IMG/VR virus record: IMGVR_UViG_3300010373_000940
Location: 1-27,661 of that record
Source: a virus
Length of the DNA: 27,661 nucleotides
Reading direction: 5' to 3' (one strand)
The notes below the pieces were generated by a model. That model saw only the letters and a list, made by a program, of their open reading frames with translations, was not told the DNA's origin and made no database searches. Shown piece after piece: positions 10,246 through 27,013 of this stretch. How positions within the stretch are numbered: the first letter of the stretch is position 1; the number at the start of each line of letters is the position of its first letter. The position numbers and the translations under genes are program-made.

Positions 10246-10619
10246 TTGCACGCCTTGCTGAGCGCTGCTGAGATGGTTTTGAGTTCGGAGAATGACGAGT
10301 TGATCGCCGGGGAGAGCATGTCGATCAGGTCATCCTCGACGACGTCGAACTGCTCGGGCGTCATGCCGAGCTTCGAGCGGAGGTAGTGACGTGCGCCGCT
10401 GATTGCGAACCAGGCGTGACCTAGCTCGTGAAGGAGGTAATGCCACGCGGCCGTCGGCTCGGAGCACGAGTCCTTGTTTAGACGGATCGTCTGCGTGTCC
10501 TGCTCGTACGTGGCGTTCACCGCGGTGCTGAGCAGATTGGAATCGCCGATCTCATCGACCGTCGCCATCACGACGCTAACGGCGACGTTGAGCACGGAAA
10601 CACGGCCGACCCTCTTCAC
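10242..10619 (-). CDS. HExxH zinc metalloprotease-like small protein
   Basis: 125 residues from the GTG at 10617-10619, overlapping the 5'-nucleotidase stop as GTGA. A longer frame exists, but its N-terminal 48 residues are basic shadow of the preceding gene. The centre holds YLLHELGHAWFAISG, a zincin HExxH motif with the H-E-L-G-H-A-W form of ImmA/IrrE-like and phage metallopeptidases. Upstream strands (TYEQDTQTIRLNK) also fit that fold. A third zinc ligand may be one of the acidic residues in EDDLIDML. ImmA-type proteases cleave phage or host repressors, which would suit a regulatory role; this is inference. Confidence 0.62.
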   Translation of the reverse strand: MKRVGRVSVLNVAVSVVMATVDEIGDSNLLSTAVNATYEQDTQTIRLNKDSCSEPTAAWHYLLHELGHAWFAISGARHYLRSKLGMTPEQFDVVEDDLIDMLSPAINSSFSELKTISAALSKACK

Positions 10620-11197
10620 GCGGCCCTCGACTTCTTGGCGCCGGTACGGATCGCGTCGACGGCCTCGAGATACGACCTCACTCGAACAGCGTAGGGAGCA
10701 GCCTGGCGGTTCCAGGGGCGGTCGATCAGAACGGCCAGTCCGTCGGGCTGCACGCCCTTCCACGACTCAAGCGTCTCCGCGCGGTCCTCGACGAGAACGT
10801 CGGCGAACTGCGTGACGAGGTGCTTCTTCTTCGTGGGGACACTCACGATGTCGTTCGCCTGGACGTACGGGTCCAGCCACTTCGCTCGCTCGTCCTGCCA
10901 CGTCGGCGAGCCGCGGAACGGCGCCGTCGCGATCGTCACGTCGCCGAGGTCCTTCAGGATCGAGAGGAAGAGCCGGGCGCCGGGGTACCAGTCGAGCTCC
11001 CGGGCGAAACCGGGCGCGGCCATGATGTCGTTCGCGACGTGCAGGGCCTCGGGCGTGAGGGTCCGGGACAGCTCGAAGTGCTTGACGTCGTCGACCGCGT
11101 AGCGGTGCCCCCTCGGGGCCAGCCGCTGGAGCAGCCCCCCGACGAAGTCCGCCAGCACCCCGTCGACGTCCACCGCGATGTTCAGAGACAGCTTCAC
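10616..11197 (-). CDS. HAD-family 5'(3')-deoxyribonucleotidase-like protein
   Basis: 193 residues from the GTG at 11195-11197, six bases after a GGAGG site. Motif I is AVDVDGVLADF, with Asp10 nucleophile and Asp12, as in pyrimidine 5'-nucleotidases of the NT5C type. Motif II is in VTIATAPF, and motif IV is around ADVLVEDRAETLESW. It would dephosphorylate (deoxy)nucleoside monophosphates in the cytoplasm, and so fits the nearby dNTP diphosphohydrolase and MazG-like genes. A 165-base non-coding leader with strong alternative RNA stems precedes it. Confidence 0.8.
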   Translation of the reverse strand: MKLSLNIAVDVDGVLADFVGGLLQRLAPRGHRYAVDDVKHFELSRTLTPEALHVANDIMAAPGFARELDWYPGARLFLSILKDLGDVTIATAPFRGSPTWQDERAKWLDPYVQANDIVSVPTKKKHLVTQFADVLVEDRAETLESWKGVQPDGLAVLIDRPWNRQAAPYAVRVRSYLEAVDAIRTGAKKSRAA

Positions 11198-12331: not shown

Positions 12332-12353
12332 CAATCAGGTTAGTTGGAACGTG
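12332..12353 (-). promoter_or_regulatory. Promoter of the sigma-factor operon (same -10, but with leader)
   Basis: Minus strand: CACGTTCCAAC, TAACCT, then GATTG. The -10 and the following GAT match the leaderless class, but GAG replaces GTG, so translation starts about 40 bases downstream at an ATG with a Shine-Dalgarno site. It begins within the U-tract of the DNA polymerase terminator, so terminator and promoter abut. Confidence 0.55.
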
Positions 12354-23995: not shown

Positions 23996-24017
23996 TTATC
24001 CGGGAATAAACAATTCA

Positions 24018-24051
24018 AAGCCCACCCAGCCCCGGCTCGGTGGGCTTTTTC
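24018..24051 (+). terminator. Intrinsic terminator after primase-helicase
   Basis: Stem AAGCCCACC (24018-24026) and GGTGGGCTT (24039-24047), loop of 12 bases, followed by a run of T. Ends the endonuclease VII-like/primase-helicase unit. Confidence 0.85.
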
Positions 24052-24294
24052 GTGCCCTGAAGGGGCGGTTCGGGGTGTCATCGGTCCCTGAGAGAAAAGC
24101 CAATGATTTCGCAAGATAGGCACGAGACAGGGACAGAGGGACAGAGATAGATAATGGGTATGATTGGTAGCGGTGGGGGAGGGGTGCCCGGCGGTGGGGA
24201 CGAATCTCCCGGTATACGGAGGGACTGTCCCTCCTGTCCCTCCGTCCCTGTTTGACATGTAGGTAGGAGCACATCCCGGTCACTACGCTGATCG
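24052..24294. other. Non-coding intergenic region upstream of capsid operon
   Basis: No gene is supported on either strand. It contains a G-rich strip (24170-24200) with several GGGG runs, and the GGGACAG/GTCCCTCC inverted-repeat cluster described separately. At its end lies the leaderless promoter of the protease/scaffold gene. A TTGACA at 24252-24257 has no matching -10 at 16-18 bases. Confidence 0.6.
24127..24254. repeat. Iteron-like direct and inverted repeats (GGGACAG / GTCCCTCC)
   Basis: Two tandem AGGGACAG copies at 24129-24144 face a run of GTCCCTCC (24227-24234, 24236-24243) and GTCCCTG (24244-24250) with a nine-base period. ACGGAGGGAC (24216-24225) and GTCCCTCCGT (24236-24245) form a perfect ten-base inverted repeat with a ten-base spacer, and GGAGGGAC-T-GTCCCTCC is a nested palindrome. 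The two halves of the region could also pair over about 16 bases with one bulge. It may be a replication origin, protein-binding array or mRNA leader structure. Confidence 0.6.
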
Positions 24295-24297
24295 GTG
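24284..24297 (+). promoter_or_regulatory. Leaderless promoter element TACGCT-gatcg-GTG (capsid operon)
   Basis: Plus strand: TACGCT, gatcg, then the GTG of the protease/scaffold gene. Strict match. CACAT lies 11 bases before the -10. Confidence 0.62.
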
Positions 24298-25410
24298 AGC
24301 GAGATTCTGAAGAAGCAGCGGCGACTGGACATCCAGACCGCGCCCGTCGACATGAAGCTGCAGCGCACGCCCCAGGGTGGCCTGATGGCGCGCGCGACAC
24401 CGACCCGGTGCGGGGTGCTCGAGTACACGTACCCGGGCGGCAAGAAGGTCCGCGAGCTCCGACATCCCGACGAGGTGTTCCGCTCGGACAGCCTCGAGTC
24501 GCTGCGTGGCGCTCCCATCACGGTCGGACACCCCAACGTCCCCGTCGACGCCGCGAACTGGCAGACCCTGGCGAAGGGGCACGTCGGCGATGACGTCCAC
24601 CAGGACGGGAAGTTCGTCGCGGCGAAGGTCCGCATCCAAGATGCGGCGACCGTCGAACGCTGCATCGACGCGACCCGGCCCGATCGTCTGGTGGAGATGT
24701 CGTGCGGCTACGACGCGGACGTCGAGTTCACGCCCGGCGTCTGGCAGGGAGAGCGCTACGACGCCGTCCAGCGGAACATTCGATACAACCACGTGGCGCT
24801 CGGACCTCGTAATTGGGGCCGTGCGGGCAACGAGGTGGGTCTCCGTCTGGATGCACAAGAGGGAAGTGAGGATATCACTCCCTACACTTATCTTGTGAAT
24901 CACATCGATCAAGCCGACCCGGCGGCGCCGGTCACCGTTCTGGACGCGAAGGACTTCGTGTCGAAGGCGGACCACGAGAAGGCGTTGGGCGTGAAGGAGT
25001 CCAAGATCGCCGAGCTCGAGGCGAAGCTCGCATCGCAGACGAAGCGCGCGGACAGCGCGGAAGCGCAGATCGCCCCGGCGGCTCTCGACGTGCTCGTCGC
25101 TGAGCGACAGTCGATCGTCGACACGGCCCGCTCGGTCATCGGCAAGGAGTTCAAGGCCGACGGCAAGAGCGCGCACGCGATTCGTCTCGAGGTCGTGACG
25201 AAGGCACGCCCGTCAATGAAGTTTGACGGCAAGTCCGAGGCGTACGTCGCCGGCGTGTTCGAGACGCTCGCGGCTTCGGAAGCGGCGGCGACCGCGTCGC
25301 ACGAGAAGGTGTCGACCGCGAAGACCGATTCGACCAGCGCCGACAAGGTCGGCACCGCGTTCGACGGGATGATCAAGGACCTCCACGGCCAGTTTCAGGA
25401 GAACAAGTAA
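24295..25410 (+). CDS. Prohead protease (DUF2213-type) fused to scaffold
   Basis: 371 residues from a GTG behind a strict promoter. Residues 20-190 match DUF2213: GGLMARATPTRCGVLEY, VRELRHPDEVFRSDSLESLR, GAPITVGHP, then KGHVGDDVHQDGKFVAAKV, VEMSCGYDADVEFTPG and NIRYNHVALGPRNWGRAG. The His/Ser blocks (GHP, MSCGY, NHVAL) are the expected protease positions. From about residue 215 the chain is a charged coiled coil (KADHEKALGVKESKIAELEA) and then an Ala/Ser-rich tail, as in internal scaffolds. It cleaves and shapes the prohead before DNA packaging. The stop overlaps the next start as TAATG. Confidence 0.85.
   Translation: MSEILKKQRRLDIQTAPVDMKLQRTPQGGLMARATPTRCGVLEYTYPGGKKVRELRHPDEVFRSDSLESLRGAPITVGHPNVPVDAANWQTLAKGHVGDDVHQDGKFVAAKVRIQDAATVERCIDATRPDRLVEMSCGYDADVEFTPGVWQGERYDAVQRNIRYNHVALGPRNWGRAGNEVGLRLDAQEGSEDITPYTYLVNHIDQADPAAPVTVLDAKDFVSKADHEKALGVKESKIAELEAKLASQTKRADSAEAQIAPAALDVLVAERQSIVDTARSVIGKEFKADGKSAHAIRLEVVTKARPSMKFDGKSEAYVAGVFETLAASEAAATASHEKVSTAKTDSTSADKVGTAFDGMIKDLHGQFQENK
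24883..24897 (+). promoter_or_regulatory. Candidate internal leaderless promoter for a free scaffold protein
   Basis: TACACT (24883-24888), six bases, then GTG at 24895-24897, which is codon 201 in frame. It stands in a local AT-richer patch with codons unlike the rest of the gene. The product would start VNHIDQADPAAPVTVLDAKD and contain only the scaffold coiled coil. It lacks the GAT of the strict class and has a six-base spacer. Confidence 0.35.
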
Positions 25411-25940
25411 TGGCGGGCATTCAGATTCCCCAGACCGATTACGAGCAGACCCCGACCACTTTCGCCGCGGGCATGCCGGCTCGGCCGCTCGGGAACGGTG
25501 AGACCGTCGAGCACTTCGTGGCTTCGGTCGACATCGATCCGGGCACGCTCGTCGAGGTCGTGAACGGCGCGGTCCGTCCAGCGCAGTCGCTGAACGGCGC
25601 GCTCAAGCCGCTCGTCGGCGTGGCGCTCCGCATGCTCACGCACACGAACGCGACGTCGTTCTCGCCGCCCTTCACCACGTGGAAGGCGGGCCAGCAGGTC
25701 CCCGTGATGCGCAAGGGGCGCATCTACGCGAAGTGGAGCGGCACCACGCAGCCCGAGTACGGGAAGCTGAACTACTCCCACTCGAGCGACGGCACGCACA
25801 ACCAGGGCGTGTTCACCGACGCGGCGACGGCCAGCACCGCGGGTGCGGAAGTCGACAACTGCCCGAACGGCGTTCTCTCGGTGAAGTCGACCGGCTCCAC
25901 GTCGGTTTGCCTCGTCGAGCTCAACCTGCCCGCCGGCTGA
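25410..25940 (+). CDS. Capsid structural cement / decoration protein (DUF2190-like)
   Basis: 176 residues; the ATG overlaps the previous stop as TAATG and has an AGGAG site nine bases upstream. The sequence is beta-rich with Gly, Thr and Pro: an opening AGIQIPQTDYEQTPTTFAAG, VDIDPGTLVEVVNGAVRPAQ and KPLVGVALRML, the 'G.A.....GQ.VPV...G' type run (WKAGQQVPVMRKGRIYAKW), and a closing LSVKSTGSTSVCLVELNLP. This pattern and the place between protease and major capsid gene match DUF2190-like cement proteins, which stabilise the outer capsid surface. Confidence 0.72.
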   Translation: MAGIQIPQTDYEQTPTTFAAGMPARPLGNGETVEHFVASVDIDPGTLVEVVNGAVRPAQSLNGALKPLVGVALRMLTHTNATSFSPPFTTWKAGQQVPVMRKGRIYAKWSGTTQPEYGKLNYSHSSDGTHNQGVFTDAATASTAGAEVDNCPNGVLSVKSTGSTSVCLVELNLPAG

Positions 25941-25966: not shown

Positions 25967-27013
25967 ATGAAGAGGGTTTTCCGCGCCGACGCGATTCAGG
26001 CGCTCGTCAATCAGGGGCACCTCGACGCAGGCGAGGGCATCGTCTTCGCTCGCGAGCTCGAGAACATCGAGGCGCAGGTCTACGAGATCAAGTACCCGGA
26101 CCTGAAGGGGCGCTCGATGCTCCCGGCGTTCGGCGGCCTCTCGCCCACGGACGAGACGTGGACCTGGCGCATCATGGACAAGCAGCTCGCCGAGGCGGAC
26201 GAGGCCGAGCTCACGACCGACGAGATCCCGACGGTCGACGTCCTCATGGCGGAGACCCACTCAGGCTTCGTCGACATCGTTCAGGGCTACGGCTACACGA
26301 TCGACGAGATCCAGAAGTCGCAGCGCCTCGGGCGCCCGCTGGACCTCACGCGCGCGACGCTGGCGCGTGAAGCGGTCGAGCGCAAGTTCGACTCGATGAT
26401 CGCGCTCGGCTCGAAGAACGCTTCGCTCAACGGGCTGTACGGGTTGCTGAACCAGCCGCTCGACACGGCGTCTGGCTTCGTGCACTCGGTGAGCGTGGCG
26501 AGCGGAGACCTCACGGCGGGCGCGTCGGGCACGGGGACCGTGTGGGACCCGAACGCGGCGTCGAACGCCTGCACGGTCAAGGAGATCGTTCGGCAGCTGA
26601 ACCAGGCGTTCGCGTACGTCACGGTGGGGACGAACATGATCCACCGCCCGGATACGCTGGTCCTCGACACGAAGACCTACACGGCCTGGGAGACCACGCC
26701 GGCGAGCCTCGCGGACGCGAACTACTCGGCGTCGGACAAGAGCCTGCTCGATTACATCAAGGGCCAGTGCAAGTGGCTCAAGAACATCGACTGGTGGCTC
26801 AAGTGCAACACGGCGGGCCCCTCGAGCAAGGCGCGCGCGGTCCTGTACGAGAAGAAGCAGGAGAACGGGTGCTACGGCATCTCGCGCGAGTTCACGCAGA
26901 TGCCGGTGCAGGTCAAGAACTTCAAGTTCTGGATTCCCTGCTTCGGCAAGTGCGGCGGCGTGAAGATCCGCTACCCCAAGTCGATGGTCTACATCGATGG
27001 CATCCAGCCCTGA
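25967..27013 (+). CDS. Major capsid protein (DUF2184-like)
   Basis: 348 residues from the ATG at 25967; CAGGAGACGGAG lies upstream at suitable spacing. A longer frame upstream is shadow. It opens MKRVFRADAIQALVNQGHLD and contains LENIEAQVYEIKYPDLKGRS, ETWTWRIMDKQLAEADEAEL, FVDIVQGYGYTIDEIQKSQR, GRPLDLTRATLAREAVERKF and NGLYGLLNQP, the sequence order of DUF2184-type phage capsid proteins with the HK97-like fold. The C-terminus has GVKIRYPKSMVYIDGI. It forms the icosahedral shell; 29 of its residues at 26750-26960 include unusual Trp and Cys density. An intrinsic terminator follows. Confidence 0.83.
   Translation: MKRVFRADAIQALVNQGHLDAGEGIVFARELENIEAQVYEIKYPDLKGRSMLPAFGGLSPTDETWTWRIMDKQLAEADEAELTTDEIPTVDVLMAETHSGFVDIVQGYGYTIDEIQKSQRLGRPLDLTRATLAREAVERKFDSMIALGSKNASLNGLYGLLNQPLDTASGFVHSVSVASGDLTAGASGTGTVWDPNAASNACTVKEIVRQLNQAFAYVTVGTNMIHRPDTLVLDTKTYTAWETTPASLADANYSASDKSLLDYIKGQCKWLKNIDWWLKCNTAGPSSKARAVLYEKKQENGCYGISREFTQMPVQVKNFKFWIPCFGKCGGVKIRYPKSMVYIDGIQP

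Follow-up and report, generated by a model that had tools for sequence, protein, structure and literature searches.

The window, a virus record from IMG/VR that is 27,661 bases long, contains a head maturation protease-scaffold gene followed by the genes of a capsid cement protein and the major capsid protein (Table 1). The 24295–25410 ORF matched PF09979 (DUF2213) in its N-terminal part (1.1e-36; 126.8 bits against a curated cut-off of 22; residues 24–182) and the head maturation protease family phrog_530 over residues 6–351 (1.7e-77, 262 bits). The gene order from protease to cement (25410) to major capsid protein (25967) is that expected of a DUF2213 head maturation protease. By sequence and domain order, the gene is a member of DUF2213/phrog_530. 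An inverted repeat of 18 nt (94%; arms at 24127–24144 and 24234–24251, with 89 nt between them) lies between the primase-helicase and protease genes, and a 15-nt hairpin with a T-run at 24017–24048 is likely the terminator after the VapE-type primase-helicase gene.

Table 1. Features of the protease-scaffold locus and the genes downstream of it.
Feature	Position	Strand	Details
Leaderless-type box of the full-length protease-scaffold gene, CTACGCTGATCG	24283..24294	+	One of nine TANNNTGATNN[AG]TG boxes; SD -2.9 kcal/mol
Head maturation protease-scaffold ORF, full-length	24295..25410	+	GTG start, 371 aa (371 codons)
Protease domain, residues 21-178	24355..24828	+	AlphaFold pLDDT mostly 88-98; family-invariant H79, S136
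Disordered linker with putative nested start, residues 179-216	24829..24942	+	AlphaFold pLDDT under 50
Hairpin just upstream of the box, AGGGAAGTGAGGATATCACTCCCT	24860..24883	+	MFE -12.2 kcal/mol; includes SD-like GAGG
Putative internal promoter core, CTACACTTAT	24882..24891	+	-10 hexamer TACACT, 24883-24888; matrix score 18.5, rank 11
Putative nested scaffold ORF, GTG codon 201	24895..25410	+	171 aa, 18.1 kDa; 3'-coterminal with the full gene
Predicted N-terminus of the nested scaffold			formyl-Met/Met-NHIDQADPAAPV...
Helical (coiled-coil-like) scaffold region, residues 224-369	24964..25401	+	AlphaFold helices 224-258, 261-282, 293-304, 315-346, 349-369
Capsid cement/decoration protein	25410..25940	+	PF22758, 2.3e-11; SD -7.4
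Major capsid protein	25967..27013	+	PF09950, 1.6e-40; SD -6.6

The protease-scaffold protein was modelled with AlphaFold using 56 homologues. In a Foldseek search, the folded domain matched the phage T4 gp21 protease (5jbl; E 2e-5, probability 1.00, target TM-score 0.56–0.63). H79 and S136 did not vary across the 56 sequences and are candidate catalytic residues of the predicted capsid-protease fold. The chain is folded up to about residue 178, disordered over 179–216 and helical over 224–369; therefore, codon 201 lies between the protease and the helical, scaffold-like region. The original prediction had placed an in-frame GTG at the junction of the two parts, and both the limits of the DUF2213 match and the modelled linker, which contains codon 201, agree with that placement.

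A strict box of the leaderless type, CTANNCTGAT-NN-GTG, is present at nine gene starts in the window, none of which has a Shine–Dalgarno (SD) sequence. The box, TANNCTGAT-NN-GTG, stands at the ORF starts 2651 (+), 21390 (+), 24295 (+), 27418 (-), 21339 (-), 8076 (-), 6401 (-), 2305 (-) and 1672 (-), and the portal, terminase and 24295 protease genes are among those that bear it. SD duplex energies at the nine boxed starts ranged from 0.7 to -3.2 kcal/mol, compared with -6.6 to -14.6 kcal/mol at 15 operon-internal starts; the nine had been picked by motif, and the absence of an SD played no part in the picking. The pattern TANNNTGATNN[AG]TG occurs 9 times in the 27.7 kb window, whereas 928 kb of other loci contain 7 copies, including one from L001, the locus of the window itself. 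The related pattern CTANNCTGATNNGTG had 8 occurrences in ten bacterial genomes with a combined length of about 49 Mb, and a host search by box frequency returned chance-level counts only. No -35 hexamer was found at any box, the best match being 2–3 of 6 bases, as at random positions. In high-GC Actinobacteria and Deinococcus-Thermus, leaderless genes have a TANNNT that precedes the start by about 12 bases (PMC3160421, PMC12340547), and the usual spacing between the -10 motif and the ORF in Deinococcus is 6–7 bp (PMC12340547). We infer that the nine boxes are promoters of the leading genes, of the leaderless type; the host, judged from the phage alone, would also use leaderless mRNA.

Looser versions of the box occur at two ATG starts, 2581 (-) and 1171 (-). 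In addition, CTACGCTGTTCGAGTG at 10681 (-) lies in frame inside the gene 10616–11197, at codon 173 (of 193), and is perhaps a promoter for the next minus-strand gene; the matrix scan described below put it at rank 10. The core CTANNCTNAT was present 13 times in the window against 0.455 expected; nine copies are on gene starts, and the site inside the protease-scaffold gene is another. At 12343 (-), 16183 (-) and 20684 (-), the core has no adjoining start codon. Of these, the first two precede gene starts on the minus strand and may act as leadered promoters.

Inside the protease-scaffold gene, TACACT (24883–24888) is followed by TATCTT (24889–24894) and by an in-frame GTG (24895–24897, codon 201), precisely the TACACT-N6-GTG arrangement that had been proposed. 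A weight matrix was built from the nine gene-start boxes with the internal site excluded, and both strands were scanned, allowing a spacing of 5 or 6. The GTG at 24895 scored 18.5 and ranked 11 of about 55,000 positions; none of 30 shuffled windows reached the score of its box, and the nine true sites scored 19.3–24.8 (leave-one-out) versus 18.5 here. With this rank and its CTANNCTNAT core, the internal site probably belongs to the same class as the nine boxes. Measured against the strict consensus CTANNCTGATNNGTG, it has a spacer of 6 instead of 5 and a T for the G before AT. When the protein was held fixed and codons were drawn from the phage's own usage, 0.07% of synonymous recodings reached the score (P about 0.0007). 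On these sequence statistics, TACACT-N6-GTG is more than chance.

The codons around the box were also as first described. Ten of the codons 186–200 end in A or T, compared with 14% gene-wide (permutation p = 0.0006), which bears out the AT-richer patch, and the atypical codons reported there form the stretch with the rarest codons in the gene (p = 0.0002). Rare ACT, TAT, CTT and AAT codons fall exactly at the internal box. It is quite unlikely that the nested start has been lost, leaving the full-length fusion as the sole product, to be cleaved by its own protease in the manner of phage P2 gpO, with TACACT-N6-GTG standing there by chance. The imperfect box and the lack of an SD at any plausible junction start would fit such a loss; however, the box score (0/30 shuffled windows; P 0.0007 under synonymous recoding), the exact coincidence of the rare-codon patch with the box and the near universality of the nested start in relatives (see below) all speak against it.

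The mode of initiation was then considered. At GTG 24895, the SD duplex energy was +3.6 kcal/mol, which rules out an SD-led GTG start at this position. TACACT-N6-GTG has the anatomy by which a leaderless start is defined here, i.e., a -10 hexamer 5–7 bases before the start and no SD. The proposal of a leaderless transcript rather than an internal ribosome site is thus favoured by the nine SD-less boxes, the internal site that resembles them and the +3.6 kcal/mol at its GTG. The hairpin at 24860–24883 had a P of 0.003 under synonymous recoding, and the only SD-like bases sit in it. We regard it as very improbable that the nested start is read from the long mRNA by an unrecognised ribosome site, involving the hairpin-exposed GAGG, TTG 24985 or GTG 24991. 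Weak SDs do precede 24985 (-4.8) and 24991 (-4.4), and the hairpin is located upstream of GTG 24895. However, these two SDs are far weaker than the others of the phage (-6.6 to -14.6), and a start at 24985 or 24991 would fall inside the first predicted helix.

Homologues were collected from viral contigs, bacterial genomes and annotated phages; 161 remained after dereplication and are not phylogenetically independent of each other. We scored a nested start where, no more than 50 codons after the RAG motif, an ATG lay in frame and had an SD energy at or below -4.5 kcal/mol. Such an SD-ATG was found at the junction in 137 of the 161 relatives, compared with 13 in a control stretch inside the protease and 31 in a downstream stretch; the other two frames of the junction gave 34 and 3. 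In the alignments, a methionine recurs past the protease domain, and the codons before it spell a Shine–Dalgarno sequence. Most relatives without an SD-ATG have GTG or TTG at the junction. Several of those without an ATG have such a codon with an SD, namely GTG in L017, L029, L059, L101, L125 and L143, and TTG in L030 (AAGGAGGGAACC-TTG). This exchange of start codons at one spot indicates a start site and not a protein motif. Four Bacteroidetes-like relatives (L072, L073, L075 and L077) have a nested ATG (MKKIRLDG or MKKYKIDG) in an A-rich context without an SD, as expected for hosts that do not rely on the SD. In phage PB1, codon 182 of the protease ORF21 (L214, 13171–14568) is an internal ATG preceded by an SD (GAGGGTAATGAA-ATG).

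Because an SD-ATG is present in 137 of 161 relatives and GTG or TTG in most of the others, initiation of a nested scaffold appears to be characteristic of the family. The same comparison with the controls supports the nested free scaffold of the original prediction, and we take the sequences as strong evidence for family-wide production of a free scaffold through internal initiation. Aligning the start codons by the IDG motif alone left 69 sequences unplaced; therefore, that alignment was used only as support. The nested gene was annotated in none of the 7 relatives' records examined. A statement on nested scaffold starts in DUF2213 genes was not found in the papers open to searching.

Conservation of the element was then assessed at the level of position and of signal. 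The GTG of the window lies 22 residues after RAG, and the median of the relatives is 24, with a 5–95% range of 16–39. The box core was found at the junction in none of the 161 relatives, the best of which is 44% identical over its full length (higher values are partial matches), which rules out that these relatives conserve TACACT-N6-GTG itself. The start therefore stands at the position common to the family, and among the sequences compared its signal is peculiar to the window phage; the expected conservation holds for the place and fails for the element. The window phage seems, from these sequences, to keep the nested-start position and to swap the signal. Searches for closer relatives gave one distant match for P0001 and none for the major capsid protein or the terminase in peptide scans of viral_contigs, and none by megablast against phages. 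Two environmental Myoviridae records were re-examined and gave nothing further.

Scaffold is required in large amounts for capsid assembly, protease only in small ones. We consider it probable that the protease-scaffold gene of the window phage contains a nested leaderless scaffold gene that is expressed from a gene-internal promoter. In this scheme, the extended -10 element CTACACTTAT, with no recognisable -35, would direct transcription to begin on the G of GTG 24895 or on a neighbouring base, and the first codon of the resulting leaderless mRNA would be translated as the start of a 171-residue, 18.1 kDa scaffold without the protease domain. Promoters of the same type at 24283 and 24882 would yield two 3'-coterminal transcripts. 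The long transcript from 24283 would give a 40.3 kDa fusion in few copies, supplying the protease plus a targeting tail. The internal transcript would also bear the cement and major capsid genes, and scaffold and shell protein would thereby be raised over protease. The analysis directly shows the sequence itself, the family of boxes, the nested start across the relatives and the layout of the domains; promoter activity, leaderless translation, the nested product and its function are inferred from these.

The internal promoter may be real and serve only the cement and major capsid genes, in which case the GTG at the transcription start would be incidental. These genes lie directly 3' and have good SDs, and the three CTANNCTNAT cores at 12343, 16183 and 20684 without an adjacent start codon indicate that the core can be used, or at least be present, away from leaderless starts. 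However, the start codon lies exactly at the promoter spacing, in frame and at the family position (22 versus the median of 24). A promoter for the downstream genes is moreover compatible with a nested scaffold, as one transcript would do both. Hence, we judge the incidental GTG to be unlikely.

A nested leaderless scaffold would resemble several known systems in part. The scaffold-to-protease ratio is set by translation in phage lambda and by an internal promoter in herpesviruses, and the lambda gpC protease belongs to S49. The lambda precedent, C/Nu3, is a protease gene with an overlapping in-frame scaffold gene, for which internal initiation was described by Shaw and Murialdo 1980, as cited in PMC8508860. 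The relatives match it through their internal SD-ATG, and the window gene shares an in-frame start (GTG 24895) between protease and scaffold domains. However, lambda uses an internal ribosome start, whereas the window gene has a promoter box without an SD, and its protease belongs to DUF2213, T4 gp21-like by Foldseek, not to the family of lambda gpC. Owing to the +3.6 kcal/mol at 24895, the window gene is not classed as a C/Nu3 type, although it would work like one; the relatives do qualify. The C/Nu3 precedent of the original prediction thus holds for the internal ribosome site of the relatives and not for the leaderless mode of the window. As the relatives use an internal ribosome site, the lambda mode appears to be the family rule and the leaderless mode the variant of the window phage.

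In herpesvirus UL26/UL26.5, the coding unit of the scaffold shares its frame and its 3' end with the protease gene (PMC4498786), and a 1991 paper by Liu and Roizman (reference 6 in PMC4498786) places, by its title, the UL26.5 promoter and transcription unit inside UL26. Judged by that title, this is the closest match to the mechanism suggested for the window gene; it differs in having eukaryotic transcription and translation and no leaderless mRNA. In Shigella VirF30/VirF21, one gene gives two proteins, the shorter of which is in frame and comes from a leaderless mRNA made by a gene-internal promoter (PMC5101355), although VirF is a transcription regulator and not a capsid scaffold. The nearest comparison in protein and place is the DUF2213/phrog_530 proteases themselves, which have a nested start site at the same place as that of the window but use an SD with ATG, GTG or TTG, or an SD-less ATG in the four Bacteroidetes-like cases, instead of a leaderless box. 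Gp24 of Pseudomonas phage Pa193 (PDB 9B40) is a homologue (profile E 7.8e-17) with a homologous protease domain. According to the passages on gp24 in PMC11042391, its C-terminal residues 286–326 form a helical hairpin inside the capsid at the five-fold vertices, and the protein is called a putative scaffold, the authors being unable to tell whether it is cleaved; these passages mention no nested start.

If the nested leaderless scaffold is correct, the window phage would follow a herpesvirus-like route with leaderless mRNA in a protease family that is otherwise lambda-like. Both routes would thus occur within one protease family, making the switch between them open to study inside a single family. 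We lean toward the view that the hidden scaffold gene is kept in place and that its start signal is exchanged to suit host translation, as SD-ATG, SD-less ATG or leaderless promoter; with a leaderless internal promoter in the window phage, the UL26.5 solution would have been reached independently. The nested start also offers a testable account of the capsid-interior fragment of Pa193 gp24 described in PMC11042391, to which the ATG at codon 182 of PB1 may be relevant. A family-wide nested start would add an unannotated gene to many phage genomes.
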